Shown here: piece after piece, positions 11,037 through 32,292 of the stretch
Numbering within the stretch: position 1 is the first letter of the stretch
Layout of the letters: each line of letters begins with the position of its first letter
DNA from: Deltaproteobacteria bacterium
GTDB taxonomy: Bacteria > UBA10199 > SPLOWO2-01-44-7
Reading direction: 5' to 3'
Assembly: GCA_030648035.1 (NCBI GenBank)
Contig: JAUSII010000101.1
Span: 1-32,292 of the forward strand
DNA: 32,292 bases
Program-made: the position numbers and the translations under genes
Notes under the pieces: generated by a model
Seen by the model: the letters and a program-made list of their open reading frames with translations, nothing else
What the model was told of the DNA's origin: nothing
Database searches by the model: none

Positions 11037-11600
11037 TCAATGATTGGCCAGTGCGTAGTGGAGGCCGATGGCGATGGGGTCGGGGTAGAAGGGATAGGGA
11101 GCGGCTTGATGGACGGTCTGTTGTGCCACGGTGTCGAGCATATCGGAACCGGAGGTTTGTTTTAGACGGACATATTCTATCGATCCATCTTTTTTGATTT
11201 TAAATTCCACCACCGGTGATCCTTCAATCCCCTGACGTTTGGCTGTGAGTGGATAAAATTTGGCCCGTTCGATCTTGCTTCGAATCTGCCGCATGATTTC
11301 GGAGTCTCCCCCTTCGCCACCGTTGCCACCGGAATTATATTTGTCATCCTGAGGCTTCGCCGAAGGATCCCGATGTTCAGCGGGATTCTTCGCTTCGCTC
11401 AGAATGACAACATGGTTTTCCGTATCCACCAACGACACCGAAATAAAGCTGGCGCCGGGTTGGCCGAGCGCGCGCGTTTCCTGCACATGATTATAAATTC
11501 CAAACGACAGGAGCCCCAACAAAACTCCGTGCGCCAACAGGGCGACACAGAGAGACGGGGTCAGATGGAGGCGGTTTGAACCGGTTTTTCTTGGAGCCAT
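11037..11600 (-). CDS. tonB: TonB-family energy transducer
   Basis: The protein has 187 residues. A short cytoplasmic N-terminus is followed by one membrane anchor ('LCVALLAHGVLLGLLSFGIY', about 17-36) and a periplasmic linker. The C-terminal TonB domain ('KIERAKFYPLTAKRQGIEGS', 'VVEFKIKKDGSIEYVRLKQT', 'PYPFYPD') fits the receptor-binding fold. It would couple inner-membrane proton motive force to the receptor encoded three genes upstream. The ATG at 11600 overlaps the preceding gene by 40 bp and places the anchor close to the N-terminus. The alternative start at 11696 adds 32 residues of out-of-frame overlap and is less likely. Residues 65-87 are encoded by an inserted palindromic repeat. 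No ExbB/ExbD genes are in the window. Confidence 0.85.
   Translation of the reverse strand: MAPRKTGSNRLHLTPSLCVALLAHGVLLGLLSFGIYNHVQETRALGQPGASFISVSLVDTENHVVILSEAKNPAEHRDPSAKPQDDKYNSGGNGGEGGDSEIMRQIRSKIERAKFYPLTAKRQGIEGSPVVEFKIKKDGSIEYVRLKQTSGSDMLDTVAQQTVHQAAPYPFYPDPIAIGLHYALANH
11343..11408. repeat. Palindromic repeat (GTCATYCTGAG family) inside tonB
   Basis: The element begins GTCATCCTGAG and ends CAGAATGAC, with GGATCCCG in the middle. It is the same family as 25928-25994. It is read in frame within tonB and contributes the peptide SEAKNPAEHRDPSAKPQDD to the linker. Confidence 0.85.
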
Positions 11601-12109
11601 GCGCCCGCTTTCTCGATGGCCACGAACAGACCGAAAGACCAGAGAAGATCTCCCGCGAACGTGTTCTGCAAAAATGGAAGCGCCATCGCGTAACACTCCA
11701 GAAGACCGGCAACCGTTTTGGGATACATTCCCTGCGAGAGCCAGACGCCAAAATTGGTAACGGCAAAAAATTGCAGACTGCCGACGATGCTGAAGGCTCC
11801 CAGTTTGAGATAACGGTTGGAACCTTTAATGTGGGATCCCAGAAAAATGCTGATGGCGAATGCGCCGTAGATAAAAGGAGTGACCATCGACCAGGGTTCC
11901 ACGTGAAAAAAGAGTCCCAGAAGAGCATCGCTTAAGGCCATTGCCAGAAAAGGAACGACCCAGCGGGAAACCTTGTCGAGTTTTGCACCGCCTACCAAAG
12001 CCATCGCACCGACAGGTGTCATGTTGGCCGGATGCGGAATGAGACGCCCCAGCGTGGCGAGAATAATCAATGCGTTTGTAACCCAAGTTTGTTTCGATTC
12101 TGTTTTCAT
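11561..12109 (-). CDS. DUF6580-like integral membrane protein
   Basis: The protein has 182 residues and about five or six hydrophobic segments: 'NALIILATLGRLI', 'WVVPFLAMALSDALLGLFF', 'MVTPFIYGAFAISIFLG', 'GAFSIVGSLQFFAVTNFGVW', 'LLWSFGLFVAI'. The motif 'GRLIPHPANMTPVGAMALVG' near the N-terminus is typical of the DUF6580 family. That family resembles ECF-type S components and often sits beside TonB receptor genes. An inner-membrane transport role in the same uptake pathway is inferred. The ATG at 12109 follows a GGGGGAAAAT site. Start codons upstream lack such a site. It lies 43 bp downstream of the lipoprotein gene and overlaps tonB by 40 bp. Confidence 0.75.
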   Translation of the reverse strand: MKTESKQTWVTNALIILATLGRLIPHPANMTPVGAMALVGGAKLDKVSRWVVPFLAMALSDALLGLFFHVEPWSMVTPFIYGAFAISIFLGSHIKGSNRYLKLGAFSIVGSLQFFAVTNFGVWLSQGMYPKTVAGLLECYAMALPFLQNTFAGDLLWSFGLFVAIEKAGAWLQEKPVQTASI

Positions 12110-12152
12110 ATTTTCCCCCTGTTTTATTGTCCAATCCCCTAGCATTTTAAGA

Positions 12153-13415
12153 TTAGCGAATCAACGTCATAGATGCGGGATAAGCACCGACCGGAAATGG
12201 GCCTGCAATCTTTATCTCCGCTTTTGGGTCGAGAAGGATGAGTCCGCTATTTGCAGAGCTTCTCTCCGGTACCCAGAGCAATCCATTTTTGTCGACCAGC
12301 AGATCGGGAAGAAATCCCCCCGGGCTCAAATAAATATTTTTATTCACGACCGTTTTGTTTGTCGGATTGAAGGTGGCTACAATGTTGGCGTTGACTGTCA
12401 ACACCCCCAGTGTGTCGGAGACCAACCTTAAAGTGGAGAGATAGCCGCCAAAATCCTTGTCGTCGATGATGATTCCTTCTGTTTTGTTGGTCGCGGGATC
12501 GACCATTTCAATGCCGCCATAGGTGGTGTTCACATCGTTGTTAAAACTGGAATCAAAATAGCCGGTGTCGGTGATAAAAAGTTTTTTGAGGGTGCTGTTA
12601 TAGGCGATGTCGGTTGGATTGCGCCCTTTAAGAAGAATCGCCTGAACACCGGTTGTCGTCAGGTCGGCATCGATGACGGTGTTGGTACGGGTATCGACCA
12701 AAACGATCTTTCCCTCTGTCGTCGCCCCAAAATTTTTGGAGAGATCCTGCAATAATATATAAAGAGTATCTCCCACGAGCGCCATCTGTGCCGCCCGCGC
12801 CAGCGAATCGCCGTCGTTGTCGGCAAAAGGTTTGAGATCGATGGAGGCTTTGAGAGTTCCGGTGATTGGATCGACAATGAAGAGATCGTCTTTGTTGTTG
12901 GCATCGAGCTGGCTGTCGAGCCTGGTGATGAAGGCTTTGCCATTGGCCACGACCAGATCCTGCGGATTGCTTCCGGCTCCAACCGAATAATTGCCGACGA
13001 TTTTGAACGTCTCCGGGTTGATCGCCTGCACGGTGCCGGTGCGTCCGCGATTGACGGTGAAAAGAATTCCGCCAAAACTTTTGACGATCACATCGCTTGA
13101 GTCGGTCACCGCTTTGGCTTTTGCAACGGGATGCGGAGAGTTTAATCCGATGGTGGCGATGCTTCCGACCGGATCGCTGAAGAAGGCGGCGGCGGCAAAA
13201 ACATTTTCATCGGGACTCAAGTTCAGGCTGGAACCTTCCGCTTCAAGATTCGATGGAGAATCGTTATTCAATTGTTCGACGACGGAGCCACTGCCGCAGG
13301 CTTGTAACAAACAGCATGTCATTGCGAGAAGCCGAAGGCGACGAAGCAATCCAGATAGCACCGGGATTGCTTCGGCCCTTTGGGCCTCGCAATGACACAC
13401 TTGTTTGCATTTCAT
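12153..13415 (-). CDS. Lipoprotein with beta-propeller (YncE/YVTN-like) repeats
   Basis: From ATG 13415 the protein has 420 residues. GGAG upstream supports this start, and ATGA overlaps the receptor stop. A lipobox-like LLQAC places the lipidated Cys at residue 40. The segment before it (residues 7-33) is encoded by a palindromic repeat. A TTG at 13349 inside the repeat would give a more typical short signal (MLRRLRLLAMTCCLLQAC). After the Cys come repeated beta-propeller blades: 'GTVQAINPETFKIVGNYSVG', 'DDLFIVDPITGTLKASI', 'KIVLVDTRTNTVI', 'KLFITDTGYFD'. This is the architecture of YncE-like surface or periplasmic proteins. Being between a TonB receptor and a DUF6580 protein suggests ligand capture or receptor support. 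The ligand is unknown. Confidence 0.8.
   Translation of the reverse strand: MKCKQVCHCEAQRAEAIPVLSGLLRRLRLLAMTCCLLQACGSGSVVEQLNNDSPSNLEAEGSSLNLSPDENVFAAAAFFSDPVGSIATIGLNSPHPVAKAKAVTDSSDVIVKSFGGILFTVNRGRTGTVQAINPETFKIVGNYSVGAGSNPQDLVVANGKAFITRLDSQLDANNKDDLFIVDPITGTLKASIDLKPFADNDGDSLARAAQMALVGDTLYILLQDLSKNFGATTEGKIVLVDTRTNTVIDADLTTTGVQAILLKGRNPTDIAYNSTLKKLFITDTGYFDSSFNNDVNTTYGGIEMVDPATNKTEGIIIDDKDFGGYLSTLRLVSDTLGVLTVNANIVATFNPTNKTVVNKNIYLSPGGFLPDLLVDKNGLLWVPERSSANSGLILLDPKAEIKIAGPFPVGAYPASMTLIR
13318..13396. repeat. Palindromic repeat (GTCATTGCGAG family) in lipoprotein 5' end
   Basis: The element starts GTCATTGCGAGAAGCCGAAG and ends GGGCCTCGCAATGAC, so its ends are inverted copies. An internal GAAGCAATCC pairs with GGGATTGCTTC. 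It is the same family as 23557-23637 and 27796-27891. It lies entirely inside the first 33 codons of the lipoprotein gene. Confidence 0.9.
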
Positions 13416-15394
13416 AATCTCAACTCCAACTCTCCCCAATACGATCTTCCCGGAAGGGGAAATCCGGCAATATCGACTGTCTGGTCGTTTAGCAAGTTTT
13501 TCGTGGTGAAGGTTATTTTGCACCAGTCGGCCGGTTTGAGGTGAAGGCCCAGTGAAACGAGTGTGCGGCTGGTCACTTTGAGCAGATTTTGCGAGTCGAG
13601 ATAGTTGTCGCTCAAATACTGAACCTGGCCAAAAGGTTGGAGCATGCGATATTCATAACTCGCCTCCATATAAGCCTGGTTTTTGGGACGCCCCGGAAGA
13701 AATTTTCCTCGTGTGGGGGAATTGTCGGCGTCATCCTTGGCGCTTTGATAAATATAATTTCCGTTCCAGCGAAAATGTTTGAAGATTTGCAGGCCCACTG
13801 CAAATTCACCTCCCGTAATCTGTGCCCCATTCAGATTTTCCGCTTTGGCGGTGAACTGGGAGTTTTGCAGATATTGAATCAGGTTGCTGGTGTTTTGTCT
13901 GAAGAGGGTTGCCTCTGCAAAGAGATGATCGAATTTCCAGAAATTATTCCACCGCCCCGATATTCCAAAATCAAAATTGAAACCCTCTTCGGGTTTGAGG
14001 GATGGGTTGCCGACAAAGGTTCCCCGGTCGCCGAAGAGTTCGTTGAAAGTGGGCTGGCGAAAGCCGTGATAAAAATTTCCCTTGAAACTCAAAAAGGGCC
14101 ACGGAGAAATTTTGGCCCCGACTTTTGCCGAGAGTTCGGTGTTGGTGATGTTGTTGTCGGGCGTGGCCACGGCGACCCCCGGATTTTGTCCGCTCAAACG
14201 ATTCACAAATATTTGCAGACGGAGCGACGGGTCGATCACAATTTTTTCATCCATGAGGGTAATTTCATTTTCGGCCCCCAGTCCCACCATGTGCCGCCAG
14301 CTGGTGGGGCCGTCTGCGGGTGTGATGTTGTAATTGGTCGGCAGAAAAGTCTCGATGCGATAAGCTATAAAACCGCTTAACAGTTGATTGTCCGTGGGGG
14401 CCCAATCGAGATGAAATTCGGGACCCCCTCTCAAAGTTTTATCGTTGTTGTCCTGCACACCGAGGCCGATCTGCCCGCTGGGATCGTGAAAGCGGTTGTC
14501 GAGATAATCAAAAAAAAGATCGGCGTTCCAGTCGACGCCCCTTGCAGAAGGGGTGGGGCCATCCAGTTTTGCGTGGATAAAATTGCGGAGTGTTTCGAGG
14601 CGGGCCGAGGTTGAGAGAAAAGAACCGAGCCCGGGAATCCCCTGTTCCTTGGCAAAAAAGTTTTCGAATATTTTGAAGTTGATTTCATCTTTTTTGTCAC
14701 TTCCGAAAATACCGGTGAAATTATAATTTTTAAAATCGTTGTTGGCCCGATCGACCACCTGATCGTCATTCACGTTGGAGCGGGTTCCCTGATCGTTCAC
14801 ATAGGGAAAATTGCCCCGGCTTCTGAAATAATCAAACGCGGCGGTATAGTAGAGATCGTTGATGGGCTGGCTTCTCTGGATGTGGCCCCGATAAGTATAG
14901 AAAGAGCCGACCGAGTTGCGCAGAATATTTTCGGTCTTGTCCGGTTTGCCTTTGGTGTGAATGTAGATGACGCCGCCCGGAGTTGAGTCGACTATTTTGC
15001 CCGGTGCGCCGCCGCGATAAATTTCGATGCGGGCAATGTTGTCGAGTGGCAGAAAAGAGAGATCGACCGCTCCCCCCTCTGCCGAATTGATCAGAATGCC
15101 ATCGACATAAATCAAAACCTGTTCGGTGGTGGAGCCGCGAATCGAGACGGTGGAAAAATCGTCAAGCCCGCCGTAAGACTGCAGATGCACACCGGCGGCC
15201 CGCTCCAGAAGTTCCGGAACAGTTTGCGCAAAACCCTGAATTTTGGAAGGGATGATGACCTGTGTTCCGGCCACACTGTCGAATTGTGCCTCCGGCTGAT
15301 CTTGCACCTGAATATCAATGCGAGGCTCCGCCGCCCAGAGAGAAGTGGTGACCAAACAAATACAAAACACAAATTTCAAAGTGGCTTTTTGCAT
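13412..15394 (-). CDS. btuB: TonB-dependent outer membrane receptor, BtuB-like
   Basis: The protein has 660 residues. A signal peptide of about 21 residues (MQKATLKFVFCICLVTTSLW, then A|AEP) is followed by a plug domain: 'VPELLERAAGVHLQSYGGLD', 'STVSIRGSTTEQVLIYVDGI', 'IARIEIYRGGAP'. The rest is a beta-barrel with many short aromatic strands ending in 'YWGELELRL'. It would import a scarce ligand across the outer membrane using TonB. The plug resembles BtuB-type receptors, and a relative of a B12 enzyme diverges from the same gap. Cobalamin is the leading guess for the ligand, but no riboswitch supports it. A purine-rich GGAGGAGG lies about 15 bp before the ATG, which is unusually far. It overlaps the lipoprotein gene by 4 bp. 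Confidence 0.85.
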   Translation of the reverse strand: MQKATLKFVFCICLVTTSLWAAEPRIDIQVQDQPEAQFDSVAGTQVIIPSKIQGFAQTVPELLERAAGVHLQSYGGLDDFSTVSIRGSTTEQVLIYVDGILINSAEGGAVDLSFLPLDNIARIEIYRGGAPGKIVDSTPGGVIYIHTKGKPDKTENILRNSVGSFYTYRGHIQRSQPINDLYYTAAFDYFRSRGNFPYVNDQGTRSNVNDDQVVDRANNDFKNYNFTGIFGSDKKDEINFKIFENFFAKEQGIPGLGSFLSTSARLETLRNFIHAKLDGPTPSARGVDWNADLFFDYLDNRFHDPSGQIGLGVQDNNDKTLRGGPEFHLDWAPTDNQLLSGFIAYRIETFLPTNYNITPADGPTSWRHMVGLGAENEITLMDEKIVIDPSLRLQIFVNRLSGQNPGVAVATPDNNITNTELSAKVGAKISPWPFLSFKGNFYHGFRQPTFNELFGDRGTFVGNPSLKPEEGFNFDFGISGRWNNFWKFDHLFAEATLFRQNTSNLIQYLQNSQFTAKAENLNGAQITGGEFAVGLQIFKHFRWNGNYIYQSAKDDADNSPTRGKFLPGRPKNQAYMEASYEYRMLQPFGQVQYLSDNYLDSQNLLKVTSRTLVSLGLHLKPADWCKITFTTKNLLNDQTVDIAGFPLPGRSYWGELELRL

Positions 15395-17785: not shown

Positions 17786-18487
17786 TCAGACAAGCCGGTT
17801 GTGATGTGATGCGGCCCATTCTTCCTGCGCCCGCTGATAACTTTCCAGCGTGCCGATGTCGCGCCAATAACCTTCATGCGCAAAAGCGGTGATGCTTTTG
17901 ACGGTTTGCATGAGCGGCACCACGCCATCCAGAATAAGATTCGATTTTTTCTCCGGCAGGGGCTCAAAAATTTTGGGGCTTAAAATCATCAGGCCGGTGA
18001 AAAGATGCTCACCCTGTTTCACATCGAGCAGGCGATTATTTGCCACCTGCAGGCGTGTGTAGCCCTCCTGCCACGGGGCGACGACCAGTGTGGCGGGGGA
18101 TTTTTGTTCGGCGTGGAGTTCCATAACCTGCGAGAGATCGCAGTTGATGAGCGTGTCGCTGTTCATCGTGACAAAGGTCTCTTCGTTTTTAAAAAAGGCT
18201 TCCGCTTTTTTGAGGCCGCCACCCGTGCCCAGAAGCTCCGTCTCTTTGGAATACGAAATTTTCAGGCCGTAATTTTTGCCATCGCCGCAGTGCTGTTCAA
18301 TTTTTTCGCCCAGATAAAAAAGATTGATGACGACCTCTTCGATCCCGAAGTTTTTGAGATAGAAAAGGGAATAGTCGATGATGGGGCGAGGGCCCAGCGG
18401 GAGAAGCGGCTTGGGATTGTTGAGCGTGAGCGGCCGCATTCTCTCGCCCAGCCCCGCCGCAAACAGCATCGCTTTTTTGAGTTTCAT
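17786..18487 (-). CDS. murU: MurU-like sugar-1-phosphate nucleotidyltransferase
   Basis: The protein has 233 residues. 'AMLFAAGLGERMRPLTLNNP' followed by KPLLPLG is the nucleotide-sugar pyrophosphorylase signature. 'ELLGTGGGLKKAEAFF' and 'FVTMNSDTLINCDL' provide the nucleotide- and metal-binding positions. The length and the adjacent AmgK-like kinase match MurU, which makes UDP-MurNAc from MurNAc-1-phosphate in peptidoglycan recycling and so bypasses de novo synthesis. Its ATG shares one base with the kinase stop (TAATG), so translation is coupled. A role in another NDP-sugar pathway cannot be excluded. Confidence 0.8.
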   Translation of the reverse strand: MKLKKAMLFAAGLGERMRPLTLNNPKPLLPLGPRPIIDYSLFYLKNFGIEEVVINLFYLGEKIEQHCGDGKNYGLKISYSKETELLGTGGGLKKAEAFFKNEETFVTMNSDTLINCDLSQVMELHAEQKSPATLVVAPWQEGYTRLQVANNRLLDVKQGEHLFTGLMILSPKIFEPLPEKKSNLILDGVVPLMQTVKSITAFAHEGYWRDIGTLESYQRAQEEWAASHHNRLV

Positions 18488-19527
18488 TATTTTCCTGTTG
18501 TCATTGCGAGGCCCGAAGGGCCGAAGCAATCCAGTCCATCCAACAGTCTGTATAATTTTTCACACTCCGGCAGTCTCTCCAGCGCTTGTTGCACATAACC
18601 CATCGAGGTGGGGATGAATGGGAGAAAGTTCGGATTTTTTTTGACGCGGTCGATGAAAACAAATCGGCCCGAGTCTTTGAGTTTGCGCTGGACCGTCTGC
18701 AAATCAAATTCTTTTCTGATTTTTTTTAAATCGGTTTTCGATTTTTCAGAGTAGTAGCCGAGCAGTTCGTCCAGATGCGCCGTCAGATCGACATAAGAAT
18801 CGCGAAGCAGTGCAACCACATCATAACATTGCGGTCCGAGCAGAGCGTCCTGAAAATCGAGAATATAGAGCTCTTTGTTGAATACCATCAAATTGCGAGA
18901 CTGATAATCGCGATGGGTAAACCCGCGTGGCAATTGGCACAGCACCTGCGTTATTTTTTGCGTTTCAGTTTTAAAAATTTTCTGGTCCCCACTTGGGCGT
19001 TGGACGTTTGGATTTTGAATTTCGACGTAATACTCCCAAAAGTGATCAAACTCCCAATCAAACAGTGTCGCATCAAACGACCTTTCAAAAGCAACGCAAG
19101 TCGATGTTCGATGTCCGATGTCCGATGTCCGGTTTTGCAGTTCCACCAATAAATCAATCGCCCTCTTATACCACCCCACCACCGTTTTGGTGTCGGCGCC
19201 GTGGACCACATCAAACAATTTCACGTCGCCAACATCCTGCAGAATCAACCACCGGTCGGGTTCGCTGAAGAGAATGATGTTGGGAACCGGCATGCCGATC
19301 GATTTTAGATAGCGCTGAACATTTATAAACGGGAGCTCCGCAGGTTTCTCCTTGGCGTTGGTGATTTCTTCCGACACGCTCATCTTTCCCTCGGGCATCG
19401 CCATTAAAATCGCGGTGGAGCCGTCTTTGAGAAAAAGGCGATAATAGGCGCGATACGAAGCTTCGCCAAAAAGTTTTTTGAGGTCGGTTACCGGTTGCTG
19501 TAGCAATTGTGAAAGACGGTCTTTCAT
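18487..19527 (-). CDS. amgK: AmgK-like anomeric sugar kinase (aminoglycoside phosphotransferase fold)
   Basis: The protein has 346 residues. 'SYRAYYRLFLKDGSTAILMA' is the N-lobe, 'GFTHRDYQSRNLMV' (203-216) carries the catalytic HxD...N motif, and 'LDFQDALLGPQCYDVVALLR' (223-242) carries the metal-binding DFQDA motif. These match AmgK, which phosphorylates MurNAc/GlcNAc at the anomeric carbon for MurU. Three parts look foreign to the fold. Residues 133-143 come from a 7-bp tandem repeat. Residues about 169-191 are a low-complexity insert. The last 15 or so residues are encoded by a palindromic repeat (18500-18532). It starts 2 bp after the IPT/TIG lipoprotein stop. Confidence 0.8.
   Translation of the reverse strand: MKDRLSQLLQQPVTDLKKLFGEASYRAYYRLFLKDGSTAILMAMPEGKMSVSEEITNAKEKPAELPFINVQRYLKSIGMPVPNIILFSEPDRWLILQDVGDVKLFDVVHGADTKTVVGWYKRAIDLLVELQNRTSDIGHRTSTCVAFERSFDATLFDWEFDHFWEYYVEIQNPNVQRPSGDQKIFKTETQKITQVLCQLPRGFTHRDYQSRNLMVFNKELYILDFQDALLGPQCYDVVALLRDSYVDLTAHLDELLGYYSEKSKTDLKKIRKEFDLQTVQRKLKDSGRFVFIDRVKKNPNFLPFIPTSMGYVQQALERLPECEKLYRLLDGLDCFGPSGLAMTTGK
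18500..18532. repeat. Half palindromic repeat (GTCATTGCGAG family) at kinase 3' end
   Basis: GTCATTGCGAGGCCCGAAGG leads into GCCGAAGCAATCC, the left half of the element found complete at 23557 and 27796. It encodes the kinase C-terminal residues around 'DCFGPSGLAMT'. The stop codon follows 11 bp later on the minus strand. Confidence 0.85.
19103..19130. repeat. 7-bp tandem repeat, four copies, in amgK-like gene
   Basis: GATGTTC is followed by three copies of GATGTCC. The unit length is not a multiple of three, so gain or loss of one copy would shift the kinase frame. It encodes the stretch around 'RTSDIGHRTS' in the protein. Confidence 0.9.
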
Positions 19528-23708: not shown

Positions 23709-24305
23709 ATGTTATCCAAAAGACAGAAGCAAATATTTGATTTTATTAGTAAATTTGTTGATGTTCACGCCTATGCCCCCAGCCTTGAAGAAATTGCTTC
23801 CCACTTCAAACTTTCCGCTGTTTCCACCGTTCATTACCATATCAGCGAGCTGATCAAAAAAGGGATGTTGGCCAAGCGCTGGAACGCGGGGCGCTCATTA
23901 GAAGTGGTGGGGCACACGGCATCACTCGCGGTGGTTGTCCCTCTGCTCGGTGTTATCGCCGCAGGCAAACCGATTGAAGCGATCGAACAGGAAGAGACAA
24001 TCGAGATTCCACCTTCATTGATGGGTCGCAAAGATACTTATGTTTTGCGCGTGCAGGGCGACTCGATGATTGAAGAACATATTCGTGATGGTGATTATGT
24101 CGTGGTGGAGCGCCGTGACACCGCCGATAACGGCGAAACGGTGGTGGCCCTTCTGAACGGCAACGAGGCGACGCTCAAAAAATTCTATCGCGAAAAAGAT
24201 CGCATCCGCCTGCAACCAGCCAATCCGACCATGTCGCCCATTTATGTTCGAGAAGAAGATTGCACCATTCAGGGTGTGGTGATTGCGATATTGAGGAAGT
24301 TCTAG
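23709..24305 (+). CDS. lexA: LexA SOS repressor
   Basis: The protein has 198 residues. The N-terminal winged helix ('LSKRQKQIFDFISKFVDVHA', 'APSLEEIASHFKLSAVSTVH') binds DNA. The cleavage site is Ala-Gly in 'LLGVIAAGKPIEA'. The catalytic Ser is in 'VQGDSMIEEHI' and the Lys in 'ATLKKFYRE', as in the LexA/UmuD S24 peptidase family. RecA-stimulated self-cleavage would derepress the SOS regulon. The ATG at 23709 matches the usual LexA N-terminus (MLSKRQ). The upstream alternative at 23667 would start before the promoter. The stop codon TAG (24303-24305) overlaps the first bases of the AGTGCGAT repeat. dinB lies downstream, beyond the inserted cassette. Confidence 0.96.
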   Translation: MLSKRQKQIFDFISKFVDVHAYAPSLEEIASHFKLSAVSTVHYHISELIKKGMLAKRWNAGRSLEVVGHTASLAVVVPLLGVIAAGKPIEAIEQEETIEIPPSLMGRKDTYVLRVQGDSMIEEHIRDGDYVVVERRDTADNGETVVALLNGNEATLKKFYREKDRIRLQPANPTMSPIYVREEDCTIQGVVIAILRKF

Positions 24306-24323
24306 TGCGATAGTGCGATGGTA

Positions 24324-24351
24324 CTTGGTACCTCGTACTTAGTACTTCGTG
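24324..24351 (+). repeat. Left 28-bp inverted repeat of the cassette
   Basis: It begins CTTGGTACCTCGTAC and ends TTAGTACTTCGTG, an exact reverse complement of 24718-24745. It is itself built from GTACTT-type units. Confidence 0.9.
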
Positions 24352-24361
24352 AGGGAAAAAT

Positions 24362-24730
24362 ATGGGGATATATAATTATCGGGAATTAGATATTTGGAAA
24401 AAAGGGATGACAATTTGTGAAAAGGTCTATTTTCTTACCGCTTCTTTTCCTTCTCATGAACAGTACGGGGTGATCTCACAACTTCGTCGCGCTGCTGTGT
24501 CTGTTCCCGCCAATATTGCCGAAGGATTTGGACGAAAATCAAATGGAGATTTTAAAAGGTTTTTAAACATAGCGACAGGTTCATTGTTGGAAGTGGAAAC
24601 CCATATCGAATTGAGCAGACGATTACACTATTGCGCGGATGTTGAAGCGGCAAATCTTTTTGAAGAAACAAATCATCTGGGCAAGATGATGACCCGGTTC
24701 ACACAAAAAATACCAAACACGAAGTACTAA
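24362..24730 (+). CDS. Four-helix-bundle protein, 23S rRNA IVP family
   Basis: The protein has 122 residues. 'YNYRELDIWKKGMTICEKVY' and 'QLRRAAVSVPANIAEGFGRK' are the hallmark helix 1 and helix 2-3 motifs of the family (often annotated TIGR02436). 'FLNIATGSLLEVETHIELSR' is helix 3. The family was first seen encoded in intervening sequences of 23S rRNA and is related in fold to Avd of diversity-generating retroelements; its biochemical role is unsettled. GAGGG seven bases before the ATG is a good ribosome binding site. The last residues (PNTKY) and the stop are encoded by the right inverted repeat. It sits between lexA and dinB, so it may be expressed with the SOS genes. Confidence 0.9.
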   Translation: MGIYNYRELDIWKKGMTICEKVYFLTASFPSHEQYGVISQLRRAAVSVPANIAEGFGRKSNGDFKRFLNIATGSLLEVETHIELSRRLHYCADVEAANLFEETNHLGKMMTRFTQKIPNTKY

Positions 24731-24745
24731 GTACGAGGTACCAAG
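24718..24745 (-). repeat. Right 28-bp inverted repeat of the cassette
   Basis: It is the exact reverse complement of 24324-24351. It contains the stop codon of the four-helix-bundle gene. It also contains GAGG about 11 bp before the dinB ATG, so it may supply the dinB ribosome binding site. Confidence 0.9.
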
Positions 24746-24749
24746 CACT

Positions 24750-25928
24750 ATGATCAATTGTGACAAAAAACTAACCATTCGCCCGCGTGCGGTGGCAACG
24801 CCCATGCCGGGGCAGAGAACTTTTTTGCATGTCGATCTCGATGCTTTTTTTGCTTCCGTTGAACAGATCAAAAATCCAAAACTCAAAGGCAAACCGGTGA
24901 TTGTCGGCGGGCGCAATTCGCGGCGCGGTGTGGTGGCGGCCGCTTCTTATGAAGCCAAGCGCTGTGGTGTGACGACCGGCATGCCGTGGCTTGAAGCGCA
25001 ATCCAAATGTCCCAGCGCCGTTTTTTTGCCGGCCGATTTTGAGGCCTACGCCGAATATTCTGAAAAGGTTCAAAAAATTCTGGGGAAAATTGCGCCGGTG
25101 GTGGCGCAAGCCTCTGTGGACGAATCTTATCTCGACCTGACCGGTTGTCAGCGTCTCTACAAAACACCGCGGGAGGCGGGAGAAAAAATCTATCGGGCTG
25201 TGAAAGACCAGACAGGACTCTCCATCTCGATCGGCATTGCCGGTTCGCAGTCGGTGGCCAAGATGGCGTCCCGTTTGGCCAAGCCCAGGGGGATGGTGGA
25301 GATTCCGAAAGGGGCGGAGAAAAATTTTCTGGCATCTCTGCCGGTGGAGGCGATGCCCGGCATCGGTCCCCAGTTGGGGGAGAAGTTGCGCGGCATGGGG
25401 ATTGTCACATTGGGCCAACTGGCCAAAGTGCCGAACGATCTGCTTCGCGCCTCCTTTGGTGTGTATGGCCCCTTTCTTCGGGCGAAGGCGCGCGGGGAAG
25501 ATACCTGGGAACTGGAAGTGACCGAAACCATCAAATCGATCGGCAAACAGGAGACTTTTCCCGAAGATGTTCGTGATTTTGCGATTTTAAAACGCAAATT
25601 GTTCGAATTGGTCGAAAAAGTGGGGCAAAAATTGCGTGAAGAAAATCTTTACGCCCGCCGGGTGGCGGTGAAGGTGAGATACGCCGACTTTTCAGAAGAG
25701 GGGACCTCTAAAACATTCAGAGACCCGACCCATTTTGACCGTGTCTTGTTTCAATATGCCGAGGAGTTGCTCTCCAACACCGTTCGTCTTGAGCGTTCCA
25801 TCAGACTCATCGGTTTTTCAGTTCAAGAATTGAGTCAACAGACCCCCCAGCTCGATCTTTTCAGAACACCCAAGGCCGAACGGTGGGAGAGGTTTTATTC
25901 CAGCCTCGATAAAATTCGCTCCTTGTAG
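24750..25928 (+). CDS. dinB: DNA polymerase IV (Y-family translesion polymerase)
   Basis: The protein has 392 residues. 'FLHVDLDAFFASVEQIKNPK' holds the first catalytic Asp and the steric-gate region, and 'AQASVDESYLDLTG' holds the second catalytic acidic pair. 'SISIGIAGSQSVAKMASRLA' and the HhH motif 'AMPGIGPQLGEKLRGMG' follow. The C-terminal 'PQLDLFR' is a beta-clamp-binding motif. It performs error-prone bypass synthesis at lesions. Its placement after lexA suggests SOS control, although the cassette now separates them. The ATG at 24750 abuts the right repeat. An internal ATG at 24804 (MPGQRTF) would match the usual DinB N-terminus better but has no clear ribosome binding site. Confidence 0.95.
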   Translation: MINCDKKLTIRPRAVATPMPGQRTFLHVDLDAFFASVEQIKNPKLKGKPVIVGGRNSRRGVVAAASYEAKRCGVTTGMPWLEAQSKCPSAVFLPADFEAYAEYSEKVQKILGKIAPVVAQASVDESYLDLTGCQRLYKTPREAGEKIYRAVKDQTGLSISIGIAGSQSVAKMASRLAKPRGMVEIPKGAEKNFLASLPVEAMPGIGPQLGEKLRGMGIVTLGQLAKVPNDLLRASFGVYGPFLRAKARGEDTWELEVTETIKSIGKQETFPEDVRDFAILKRKLFELVEKVGQKLREENLYARRVAVKVRYADFSEEGTSKTFRDPTHFDRVLFQYAEELLSNTVRLERSIRLIGFSVQELSQQTPQLDLFRTPKAERWERFYSSLDKIRSL

Positions 25929-26048: not shown

Positions 26049-26621
26049 ATGGGAGATCCAAGAATCAAAACAGAACCGCCAAGAAGCAAAGGGGCGAGAA
26101 CGGGAGAAACTCTTATTCCTGCAATTCCTCCAGCTTCGTCGCCAGCTCCATCCACACCGCCTGTTCCAGTCGATAGTTTTGACGGCAGTGGACTTGGAGA
26201 AGAATGCCGTGACAATGCGCCCGGATGGAACGATAGGGTTATGCTTTCCTATTTCCGCAACGCCTCTCCCGCAGAAATGCCGGTGCCAAGCCGTCAGCCG
26301 CCCCAAATGCCTCCGCCATTTTTTCCTCCCGGGAGGGATATAGGAAATGAAATTCGTTTTCCAAATCGTCCGGGCGTTGGCAACCCGGACCCCGGTTCCA
26401 TTCCCGATACGACAGACTGGTCTCCGCCTGGTGCTCCAAAGCCTTCCCGTGAAGAACCCCCGTTTTGGGCCCGCTTTGCTCTCGGTGCGGTGATGGTTAT
26501 CGGCTCTATTGCGGGCGCTTTTTTGACCGGCTTCGGCACCGCCGGCCCTTCTTTCAGCCCCGCCATTTTCACCGGCGCCACCCTCTATACCGGCAATCGT
26601 TTTTCCGATTCAGAGGCTTAA
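26049..26621 (+). CDS. Unknown proline-rich protein with C-terminal membrane segment
   Basis: The protein has 190 residues. About 145 N-terminal residues are Pro/Ser-rich and probably disordered ('IPPASSPAPSTPPVPV', 'PQMPPPFFPPG'). One or two hydrophobic Gly/Ala-rich segments follow ('FALGAVMVIGSIAGAFLTGF'). No family was recognised. The start is uncertain: no ribosome binding site is visible, and a 10-bp palindrome AACGCGCGTT touches the ATG. The last 17 codons and stop are duplicated exactly 1.17 kb downstream. The composition (few charged residues, high Pro) and lack of Shine-Dalgarno sequence leave some doubt that it is translated as drawn. Confidence 0.5.
   Translation: MGDPRIKTEPPRSKGARTGETLIPAIPPASSPAPSTPPVPVDSFDGSGLGEECRDNAPGWNDRVMLSYFRNASPAEMPVPSRQPPQMPPPFFPPGRDIGNEIRFPNRPGVGNPDPGSIPDTTDWSPPGAPKPSREEPPFWARFALGAVMVIGSIAGAFLTGFGTAGPSFSPAIFTGATLYTGNRFSDSEA
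26566..26621 (+). repeat. 56-bp direct repeat, copy 1 (3' end of unknown gene)
   Basis: It is identical over 56 bp to 27735-27790. It covers the last 17 codons (FTGATLYTGNRFSDSEA) and stop of the proline-rich gene. Confidence 0.95.
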
Positions 26622-26662
26622 TACTTCGTACCGGGCGCCTTAAAAAAAAATTAAAAAAGTAC

Positions 26663-27734: not shown

Positions 27735-27790
27735 TTTTCACCGGCGCCACCCTCTATACCGGCAATCGTTTTTCCGATTCAGAGGCTTAA
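27735..27790 (+). repeat. 56-bp direct repeat, copy 2 (orphan gene 3' end)
   Basis: An exact copy of 26566-26621 without the upstream gene. Within the 240-bp gap 27708-27947 it is followed at once by a GTCATTGCGAG palindrome. Confidence 0.95.
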
Positions 27791-27795
27791 CAATT

Positions 27796-29648: not shown

Positions 29649-30122
29649 ATGTCATTCGAATTTACAACCGAGAATAAGAAAAAGTTTGAGGAGACGCTAA
29701 CGCGCTATCCACAAAAAAAAGCGGCTCTGCTTCCGGCATTGTGGCTGGTGCAGGAGCAGTTGGGTTGGATTTCTCCCGAGGCGATGGAATATCTGGCGCG
29801 TCTTTTGGAAATGACACCGGCTTATGTCTACGAGACGGCGACTTTTTATACCATGTATAATAAGAAGCCGATCGGACGCCATCACATTCAGGTCTGCAAC
29901 AGCGTCTGCTGTTGTCTGCGCGGGAGCGAAGAGACGGTCAAATATATCCAGAAAAAATTGGAGATTGAAGTCGGTGAGTCGACCCCGGACGGGCGTTTTC
30001 ATCTCTCGGCGGTGGAGTGCCTCGGCTCCTGTGGCACCGCGCCGATGATGCAGATTGATAATGATTATTACGAAGATCTGAATGCAGAGAAGGTTGATGC
30101 GATATTGGAAAAGATGAAATAG
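29649..30122 (+). CDS. nuoE: NADH-quinone oxidoreductase subunit E (2Fe-2S)
   Basis: The protein has 157 residues with a thioredoxin-like fold. The 2Fe-2S ligands are in 'HIQVCNSVCCCLRGSE' and 'ECLGSCGTAPMM'. 'EYLARLLEMTPAYVYETATF' is the usual N-terminal helical motif. It belongs to the NADH-oxidising module with NuoF. GGGGGAG upstream is a good ribosome binding site. Its TAG stop codon (30120-30122) overlaps the first two bases of a palindromic repeat that separates it from nuoF. Confidence 0.96.
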   Translation: MSFEFTTENKKKFEETLTRYPQKKAALLPALWLVQEQLGWISPEAMEYLARLLEMTPAYVYETATFYTMYNKKPIGRHHIQVCNSVCCCLRGSEETVKYIQKKLEIEVGESTPDGRFHLSAVECLGSCGTAPMMQIDNDYYEDLNAEKVDAILEKMK

Positions 30123-30197
30123 TGCGATGGTGCGATAGTGCTTAGTACTTGGTGCGAATATAAATCTAAGTACCAAGTACTATCGCACTATCGCACT
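30121..30197. repeat. AGTGCGAT-family palindrome between nuoE and nuoF
   Basis: The 77-bp element has 32-bp imperfect inverted arms. The left arm starts AGTGCGATGGTGCGATAGTG at the nuoE stop and the right arm ends CTATCGCACTATCGCACT. The arms contain GTACTTGG-type cores also found in the cassette repeats. Only 8 bp remain before the nuoF ATG, so the usual ribosome binding site region is largely replaced by repeat. Confidence 0.92.
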
Positions 30198-30205
30198 GAT
30201 AAATT

Positions 30206-31495
30206 ATGGAACAAATTTTAAGCAAAAGTTGGCGCATTGTGAATCAACGCAACATGGACGTCGCTTTGATGCACGGCGCCTATGATTCGCTCAAGAAAAT
30301 TTTCAAGATGACTCCGGCCGAAGTAACCGAGACGGTTAAAGCCTCCGGCCTGCGCGGGCGCGGGGGGGCCGGTTTTTCCACTGGCACCAAGTGGACGTTT
30401 ATTCCCAAAGACAATAAGAAGCCGGTTTATCTTATTAATAATTTCGACGAGAGCGAACCCGGCACTTTCAAGGATCGTGCGATTGCGGAGAAAGATCCGC
30501 ACATGATGATCGAGGGGATGATCATCGCCTCTTATGCGATCGGCGCCAACACCGCCTATATCTATATTCGCGGGGAATATTATCGCCAGTGGGAGATTAT
30601 TGAAAAAGCGTTGGCCGAGGCTTATGCAAAAGGTTTTCTGGGAAAAAATATTCAAGGCTCCGGATTTCATCTCGATATTTTTCAACATCGCGGAGCGGGG
30701 GCCTACATTTGCGGCGAAGAGACGGCGCTTCTCTCATCTCTCGAAGGAGGAAGAGGTTATCCAAGAATCAAACCGCCCTTTCCGGCGATCGAGGGGGCGT
30801 GGCGCTCGCCAACCATTGTGAATAACGTCGAGACTCTGACCAATCTTCCCTACATCATCAATAATGGTGCGGATGCTTTCAAAAAATTCGGGACCGAAAA
30901 AAGTCCCGGCACCAAACTGATTTCGGCCTCGGGCCATATTGAAAAACCGGGTGTTTATGAAGTGGCGATGGGATTGCCGATCCACACTTTTTTAAACGAA
31001 CAGCTGGGCGGCATCTGGAAGGGTCGCAAACTCAAAGCGCTGGTGCCGGGCGGTTCGTCGTTTCCCGTGCTTACGGCAGACGAGGCGCTCAAAACAAATA
31101 TCGATTTTGAATCTTGCGCGGCGAGCGGCACATCGCTCGGCTCCGGCGGTTTTTATGTGATGGACGACACGACCTGCATGGTGCGCATGCTGATGTTCAC
31201 CGCAAAATTTTATGAACACGAGTCGTGCGGACAATGCACGCCGTGCCGCGAGGGGACCGGCTGGGTTTCGCAAATCGTGCGGCGTATTGAGGAAGGTCAT
31301 GGACGCGAACGCGATCTGCAAGTATTGCTCGATGTCTGTAATAATATGATGAACGGTCGCACCATCTGCGTTTTTGCCGACGCCCTGGCCATGCCGGTCA
31401 TCAGCTATCTGACAAAGTTTAAACACGAGTTTGAGGATCACGTGAGACTGGGGAGATGTCCGATGAGCGGGAAGTGCGATAGTGCGATGGTGTGA
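30206..31495 (+). CDS. nuoF: NADH-quinone oxidoreductase subunit F (NADH/FMN binding)
   Basis: The protein has 429 residues. 'LRGRGGAGFSTGTKWTF' binds FMN and 'HRGAGAYICGEETALLSSLE' belongs to the NADH/FMN site. 'ESCGQCTPCREGT' plus a later Cys hold the N3 4Fe-4S cluster. It oxidises NADH and passes electrons to NuoE/NuoG. No Shine-Dalgarno site lies in the 8 bp between the upstream repeat and the ATG. The last seven residues (KCDSAMV) and the stop codon are encoded by the downstream repeat, so the native C-terminus has been altered. Confidence 0.97.
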   Translation: MEQILSKSWRIVNQRNMDVALMHGAYDSLKKIFKMTPAEVTETVKASGLRGRGGAGFSTGTKWTFIPKDNKKPVYLINNFDESEPGTFKDRAIAEKDPHMMIEGMIIASYAIGANTAYIYIRGEYYRQWEIIEKALAEAYAKGFLGKNIQGSGFHLDIFQHRGAGAYICGEETALLSSLEGGRGYPRIKPPFPAIEGAWRSPTIVNNVETLTNLPYIINNGADAFKKFGTEKSPGTKLISASGHIEKPGVYEVAMGLPIHTFLNEQLGGIWKGRKLKALVPGGSSFPVLTADEALKTNIDFESCAASGTSLGSGGFYVMDDTTCMVRMLMFTAKFYEHESCGQCTPCREGTGWVSQIVRRIEEGHGRERDLQVLLDVCNNMMNGRTICVFADALAMPVISYLTKFKHEFEDHVRLGRCPMSGKCDSAMV

Positions 31496-31558
31496 TGGTG
31501 CGATAGTACTTGGTGCAAATATCAATCTAAGTACCAAGTACCATCGCACTATCGCACT
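31473..31558. repeat. AGTGCGAT-family palindrome spanning the nuoF stop codon
   Basis: The 86-bp element starts AGTGCGATAGTGCGATGG and ends CCATCGCACTATCGCACT. The left arm holds four 8-bp RGTGYGAT units, more than the nuoE-nuoF copy. The element includes the nuoF stop (31493-31495) and ends 8 bp before the nuoG ATG, the same distance as at nuoF. Confidence 0.92.
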
Positions 31559-31566
31559 CAAGAATT

Positions 31567-32292
31567 ATGATTAAGATTAAAATCGACAATAAGGAAATAG
31601 AAGTGGCGGAGGGTTCCACGGTTTTGCAGGCGGCGCTCGCCAACAAAATCGAGGTCCCCTATTTCTGCTATCATCGCAAACTCTCGATCGCGGGCAATTG
31701 TCGCATGTGTCTGGTCAATGTGAAGGGTTCCAATAAGCCGGTGATTTCGTGCCGCGAACGGGTGCGCGAGGGGATGGAAGTCGACGCCTCTTCGCCGGTC
31801 GTCAAAAAAATGCAGCAGGGTGTTCTGGAATTTATTCTGGTCAACCATCCTCTCGATTGTCCCATCTGCGATCAATCGGGCGAATGCGATTTGCAGGATA
31901 ACTATTTCAAATTCTCAAAATTTCCATCGCGTCTCGAAGACAAAAAAGTCCACAAACCCAAAGCCGTGCCACTGGGACCGCTGGTGACTTTGGATGATGA
32001 GCGTTGCATTGTCTGCACGCGATGCGTCCGTTTTTGCGATGAGATTGCCGGTACCCACGAGTTGTGTGTGACCCAGCGCGGTGGACATTCCGAACTGCGC
32101 ACCTATCCCGGCAAAGAATTAAACAATCCCTATTCTCTCTGCACCGTTGATGTCTGTCCGGTGGGGGCGCTGACCTCGACCGATTTCCGTTTTAAAAAAC
32201 GGGTCTGGTTTTTAAAAACAACAAATTCCATTTGTACCGGTTGCGCCACCGGCTGTAACATCAAAATGGATTGGAATGATGCGGCGGTTTAT
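31567..32292 (+). CDS. nuoG: NADH-quinone oxidoreductase subunit G, 3' end outside window
   Basis: The frame is open from the ATG at 31567 to the window edge (242 codons). 'MIKIKIDNKEIEVAEGSTVL' and 'PYFCYHRKLSIAGNCRMCLV' form the N-terminal 2Fe-2S ferredoxin domain. 'HPLDCPICDQSGECDLQDNY' binds the N5-type cluster, and 'CIVCTRCVRFCDEIAG' plus 'VDVCPVGALTS' bind a further 4Fe-4S cluster. 'ICTGCATGCNIKM' begins the molybdopterin oxidoreductase-like region with Cys ligands for another cluster. It is the large iron-sulfur subunit of the complex I peripheral arm. The start has no visible Shine-Dalgarno site because the repeat ends 8 bp upstream. Confidence 0.95.
   Translation, partial: MIKIKIDNKEIEVAEGSTVLQAALANKIEVPYFCYHRKLSIAGNCRMCLVNVKGSNKPVISCRERVREGMEVDASSPVVKKMQQGVLEFILVNHPLDCPICDQSGECDLQDNYFKFSKFPSRLEDKKVHKPKAVPLGPLVTLDDERCIVCTRCVRFCDEIAGTHELCVTQRGGHSELRTYPGKELNNPYSLCTVDVCPVGALTSTDFRFKKRVWFLKTTNSICTGCATGCNIKMDWNDAAVY

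Follow-up and report, generated by a model that had tools for sequence, protein, structure and literature searches.

How does a lipoprotein gene come to carry a dispersed palindromic repeat inside the stretch that encodes its signal peptide? The question is raised by contig JAUSII010000101.1 of a Deltaproteobacteria bacterium (GTDB lineage Bacteria; UBA10199; SPLOWO2-01-44-7; assembly GCA_030648035.1), of which all 32,292 nucleotides (nt) were analysed and are referred to here as the window. On the minus strand, a gene for a lipoprotein that resembles YncE/beta-propeller proteins contains the palindrome GTCATTGCGAG…CTCGCAATGAC near its 5' end. The element probably represents an intergenic palindrome of high copy number, one copy of which now sits within the signal peptide, between the ancestral start and the ancestral lipobox. 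There it would supply RRLR as the end of the n-region and LLAMT as the opening half of the h-region.

The initial annotation had proposed that a complete palindromic element occupies codons 7 to 33 in frame and that its right part provides the positive and hydrophobic residues leading into LLQAC. Both proposals are borne out, with 11-nt arms that match perfectly (Table 1). From ATG 13415 the predicted protein begins MKCKQV-CHCEAQRAEAIPVLSGLLRRLRLLAMT-CCLLQACGSGS, in which CHCEAQRAEAIPVLSGLLRRLRLLAMT represents residues 7-33 encoded by the element. The residues LLRRLRL and the LAMT of the downstream arm form the basic end of the n-region and then the start of the h-region, so that RRLR is followed by LLAMTCCLL, an uncharged hydrophobic core (mean hydropathy 2.58). 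The gene itself is real, since the coding score downstream of the element is +124 nats and orthologues at 56-61% identity are present in all six genomes of the family. Homologues were found in 28 of 99 relatives, and neither Pfam nor NCBIfam returned a family for the protein.

The repeat is abundant in the genome to which the window belongs (G000). Exact arms occur 201 times (93 + 108) vs none for the reversed control, and the window alone contains 8 matches to the GTCATTGCGAG-family motif with at most one mismatch, against 0.58 expected. Seventy-three copies are perfect and complete, including that in the window, with a median length of 74 nt and a nearly invariant T...A at the flanks (T at base -1 in 70 of the 73). 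Terminal inverted repeats, a criterion for miniature inverted-repeat transposable elements (MITEs), are present; across the 73 copies there was no excess of 2-9 nt direct flanking repeats indicative of target-site duplication and no palindromic flanks above chance, although the window copy has a suggestive 6-nt flank complement. The ends read TGTC..., and the GTAG/CGTC tag of the repetitive extragenic palindromic (REP) superfamilies was absent from them. There was no match to Y1_Tnp (RAYT transposase) in G000, and no GTCATTGCGAG was found in the examined flanks (up to 1.5 kb per side) of 12 RAYT loci in sister genomes. Within the family, G000 is the richest in elements and has no detectable Y1/RAYT, and the element-poorer sister genomes have up to seven. 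An Rfam search gave no match, and the repeat itself had none in the open-access literature searched. The element belongs among the dispersed, many-copy protein-coding palindromic repeats, as a kind that resembles the Rickettsia palindromic elements (RPE).

Orthologues of the lipoprotein share the ATG start and the lipobox cysteine and have very different DNA in between. In G003 the intervening stretch is a GTCATTGCGAG element (MKKKC-CHCELRRGEAIPVKRWIASSCFAVLAVLAMT-IGC), and in G005, of the same genus, it is a GTCATTCTGAG-type element from a different palindrome family (MRAKR-CHSEPKGRRILGSFPFDKLRVRMT-ICFLLMLGC). The G002 signal is MKIRILNLFRISCLGFSIFLFGC, encoded by DNA that corresponds to a repeat present 11 times in 400 kb of that genome; the G001 signal is ordinary (MKPWPIVFVLLFAAC), and the corresponding region in G004 is AT-rich. 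The initial annotation had named a conserved signal ending before the repeat as an observation that would count against it, and none of the inspected orthologues has one. Elsewhere in the class, in a different family, the signal of the homologous lipoprotein contains a CCCCCTCTTA/TAAGAGGGGG palindrome in one of two genomes (L013, 2669-2691, compared with L012).

The lipoprotein is one of at least twenty cases of a recurrent, genome-wide pattern that involves several palindrome families. We inspected the reading frames around nearly all GTCATTGCGAG sites of G000 and about half of those of G003. Fourteen copies in G000 lie in predicted signal peptides and about 15 more inside cytosolic-looking genes. 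Besides the window lipoprotein, the former comprise SCO1/SenC, LolA, an S41 protease, an SLT transglycosylase, a secretin, ApbE, a DUF3187 protein, two TPR proteins, a second lipoprotein, and three others; by Pfam they are mostly envelope proteins (LolA, SCO1, and SLT among those assigned). The partial survey of G003 added seven other signal peptides. Signal peptides account for about 2.5% of coding codons in the surveyed loci, which makes the enrichment strong whether 14 of 28 in-gene copies are counted (P ~1e-15), 12 of 30 in a conservative count (P = 4e-12), or 10 of 40 (P = 5e-8).

In-gene copies outside signals were found in PurH, TruA, a CysS-like gene, UvrD, a response-regulator linker, and others, all named from sequence. 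PurH (L080/L166) and TruA (L142/L176) carry the element at an identical site in two genera, and the CysS-like (L130), UvrD (L091), and PolA-like (L157) genes carry it within a conserved enzyme. Three paralogous two-receiver response regulators of G000 (L088, L100, and L101) have it in the same linker, as does the G003 orthologue (L169), and this linker element would be an old insertion that has been either kept or renewed.

Repeat-derived signals recur at orthologous genes, which were picked for these searches solely for carrying the element in G000. The SCO1 signal in G000 reads MKNTV-CHCEARRAEAIPVIIGIASSLLLLAMT-ITQTIQA; the G003 orthologue has an element at the same site, that of G005 a GGAGACACGG/CCGTGTCTCC inverted repeat (MKTEDRRLKTEDRRHGDTENGKRKTDSRSPFCVLCFLCLCSLFSVFSIRA), that of G002 another inverted repeat, and that of G001 an ordinary signal. 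Each of the six family genomes has a repeat-derived transglycosylase signal, with several repeat families as the source, and LolA signals are repeat-derived in three of four orthologues. In the L068 family, the G003 member has a complete element and the G002 member a repeat with 22 occurrences in 400 kb; the G004 member has lost the left half of an element and keeps only the right arm (MKKIFWIVSSLTLLAMTAFA), decayed in sequence yet hydrophobic. Among the other families, GTCCATRGTCY is a multicopy repeat in G004 (392), G005 (229), and G001 (46). Strong folding (z < -3) was evident in 10 of 21 5' windows of the sister genomes vs 3 of 143 windows from other parts of those genes.

The genetic code offers a reason why a palindrome may suit a signal peptide. 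With the arms paired in codon register, GAG (E) lies opposite CTC (L) and CAT (H) opposite ATG (M), and across the code the hydropathy of a codon is inversely correlated with that of its reverse complement (r = -0.59). Because the complement of a hydrophilic codon thus tends to be a hydrophobic one, a palindrome whose first arm is rich in purines would read charged and then hydrophobic in either orientation. The right arm has only two open frames, LAMT (mean hydropathy +0.36) and PRND (-0.76), which are used 17:2 in scored signals vs 4:4 in other in-gene copies (P = 0.04). Hydrophobicity is greater in the second half than in the first in each of the 16 repeat-built signals examined, which is partly expected of any signal peptide and is consistent with this logic rather than diagnostic of it. 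We tentatively extend the idea to inverted repeats as a general generator of export signals, with this lineage repeatedly rebuilding the signals of the same genes from different palindrome families, an extension that may well prove too broad.

Position relative to the preceding gene is also distinctive. Twelve of the 14 G000 genes with repeat-bearing signals overlap or abut the gene upstream vs 41 of 117 other genes (P = 0.0004), and an exact -4 overlap is found in 7 of the 14 vs 11 of the 117 (P = 0.0006). Published REPs likewise lie close to the ends of upstream open reading frames (ORFs) (PMC3733652). Palindromes of several unrelated families would thus come to rest at the junction of two genes, immediately 3' of the first gene's stop codon, and in tight operons with overlapping genes the sole room at the junction would be the 5' end of the next gene. 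Copies would survive at those 5' ends that encode signal peptides, for which charge followed by hydrophobicity is all that is required. The charged codons of the first arm (GAG and CAT) would become the hydrophobic codons of the second (CTC and ATG) in either direction of insertion, and the original h-region DNA would have been lost afterwards. It would be junction preference, rather than selection for export, that places the elements. The position and frame of the element, the conserved start and cysteine, the recurrence over genes and genomes, and the enrichment in signals and at overlaps can all be read from the compared sequences, and the repeat-containing signals are predicted to function in export.

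Elements are also found at other kinds of gene ends. A kinase-like gene at 18487-19527 (minus strand) ends inside an element at 18487-18529 (...DCFGPSGLAMTTGK), with the next gene beginning at the element's other side, and the G003 orthologue (L172) of the kinase-like protein likewise ends in an element. At L141 (1441-1512) a single open frame seemingly runs from a protein's C-terminal membrane anchor through an element into the signal peptide of the following protein.

The same distribution could reflect passive tolerance only, with insertions being least harmful in signals and junctions and the repeat being a long, harmless n-region that contributes nothing needed. Long n-regions are often tolerated, and cytosolic proteins (PurH, TruA, UvrD, and the response regulator) also have elements, in their loops and linkers. 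We nevertheless doubt this account, since removing the element leaves little that is hydrophobic in several genes (MKKKC joined to IGC in the G003 lipoprotein, MKNTV joined to ITQTIQA in SCO1), and the G004 member of the L068 family has retained precisely the hydrophobic right arm.

A function of the RNA is unlikely to be the whole cause, although it is compatible with the preferred explanation, insertion between start and lipobox, rather than opposed to it. Here the hairpin that follows the receptor gene would stabilise the receptor mRNA or lower downstream translation, with the signal peptide merely accommodating it. Most elements are close to the upstream stop codon, as are the published REPs, and the window element folds into a strong hairpin (z -5.3), whereas no such hairpin was found at the 5' end of the G002 and G004 orthologues.

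The initial annotation had left two routes open, that an intergenic repeat had become an export signal or that the start codon had moved into the repeat. It had also pointed out that an internal TTG would give a compact signal, and this is correct for TTG at codon 23 as well as for GTG at codon 19, both of which satisfy the lipobox pattern with signals of 18-22 residues and would leave the upstream part as an untranslated leader. In L052, L084, and L179, the start codon itself seems to have been made at the element edge. Against a shifted start in the lipoprotein, no ribosome-binding-like site precedes the internal GTG or TTG, both of which are near the loop of the strong hairpin, whereas a GGAG lies just upstream of ATG 13415 and its ATGA overlap with the receptor stop is found in five of the six orthologues, even where this element is absent. 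With the overlap conserved, and with the start and the cleavage site on either side of the element conserved as well, the start codon has most likely not moved, and ATG 13415 would be the one in use. The first route is supported, the same ATG and cysteine enclosing different DNA and RRLR-LLAMT leading into the lipobox, and the second is improbable. An assembly or gene-calling artefact is very improbable, for while the assembly is metagenomic with an estimated contamination of 5.8%, coding runs on at both sides of the element and the arrangement is seen in many genes.

Several observations weigh against an inserted palindrome working as the signal. Counted from ATG 13415 the lipobox cysteine is at residue 40, later than the usual lipoprotein window of 15-35, and counted from the internal starts it is at 18 or 22. 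A stable hairpin so close to the start could hinder translation. Starts and signal calls in the survey were made by inspection and with a crude predictor. Coding copies differ from one another in element length modulo 3, so that not every copy can be the product of simple frame-keeping insertion, and small changes or the recruitment of a new upstream start would often have accompanied the insertion. Repeat-derived signals are also present in the receptor gene of G002 and of G005, and the lipoprotein position is therefore not special and junctions are perhaps not the whole story. Finally, an unbiased hairpin screen that covered every tight-junction gene within about 0.8 Mb identified 3 of 75 signal-peptide genes vs 2 of 269 others (P = 0.07), which shows that most signal peptides in this material are ordinary. 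As a detector of repeat-derived signals, this genome-wide screen was too blunt.

Table 1 Features of the lipoprotein locus (window coordinates)
Feature	Position	Strand	Remarks
Complete palindromic element, T-GTCATTGCGAG…CTCGCAATGAC-A	13317-13397	minus	81 nt, codons 7-33 of the lipoprotein gene
Upstream arm of element (mRNA sense)	13386-13396	minus	11 nt, CHCE in the gene frame
Downstream arm of element	13318-13328	minus	11 nt, LAMT in the gene frame
Lipoprotein gene, YncE/beta-propeller-like	12153-13415	minus	420 residues, start ATG 13415
Lipobox LLQAC, codons 36-40	13296-13310	minus	fits PROSITE-type pattern; Cys40 invariant in all aligned orthologues
ATGA, lipoprotein start overlapping receptor stop	13412-13415	minus	same overlap in G002, G003, G004, and G005
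GGAG, ribosome-binding-like	13424-13427	minus	~10 nt upstream of ATG 13415
TonB-dependent receptor, BtuB-like (upstream gene)	13412-15394	minus	PF00593, PF07715; weak match to TonB-B12
DUF6580 membrane protein (downstream gene)	11561-12145	minus	PF20221
TonB-like gene (downstream), with an in-frame palindromic element from another family (11343-11408)	11037-11696	minus	

Other repeats are present in the window. The in-frame element of the TonB-like protein (VVILSEAKNPAEHRDPSAKPQDDK) lies in a linker and has arms of two different families (GTCATCCTGAG and CTCAGAATGAC); in the G003 protein (L173) that linker contains a GTCATTGCGAG-type element. Palindromic minisatellites (GTGCGATAG / GTACTTGG) at 24303-24751, 30120-30208, and 31480-31569 are located near a LexA-like gene and between nuo genes. 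A 61-nt stretch is repeated at 26566-26626 and 27735-27795 with 97% identity, and its first copy ends a reading frame.

In-frame protein-coding palindromes are already known. The closest in kind are the RPE and the protein-coding palindromes of Wolbachia (Ogata et al. 2000, 2002, 2005, cited in PMC10969869, PMC3733652, and PMC2996958), which, as summarized in those citing papers, are likewise of high copy number, in frame within many unrelated genes, and translated as extra residues. They belong to another host group, and the likeness drawn here is one of kind. In the same summaries, RPE insertions are described in unstructured parts of globular proteins and not as concentrated in signal peptides; unlike RPE, several families recur here at the same signal peptides. 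The REP elements that Di Nocera et al. (2013, PMC3733652) described within ORFs are similar in that UvrD, Pol I, and tRNA synthetases are also hit here, and differ in that the present element has neither a GTAG/CGTC tag nor a linked RAYT; that study took many N-terminal cases as untranslated. MITEs are comparable as non-coding, dispersed sequences with terminal inverted repeats, whereas no target-site duplication was seen and no related transposase was found for the element described here. In enterobacteria, one YPAL element has been reported in a predicted signal peptide, with relatives that have unrelated signals (Delihas 2007, PMC2759123). That case concerns one gene and one element family, whereas about 20 genes in two surveyed genomes are involved here, with lipoproteins included, recurrence at orthologous genes, and a link to gene overlaps. 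Nothing on palindromes concentrated in signal peptides or recurring at orthologous signals was found in the open literature, subscription journals being outside the search. It is this concentration and this recurrence that appear to be new, and they suggest that signal peptides can turn over through repeat replacement within one bacterial family. For annotators they carry a warning, since N-termini of this origin are commonly dismissed as spurious and here are part of conserved envelope genes. Beyond the known systems, they offer a concrete and testable route from selfish or regulatory repeats to a working protein-targeting sequence, with a reason for it in the genetic code.
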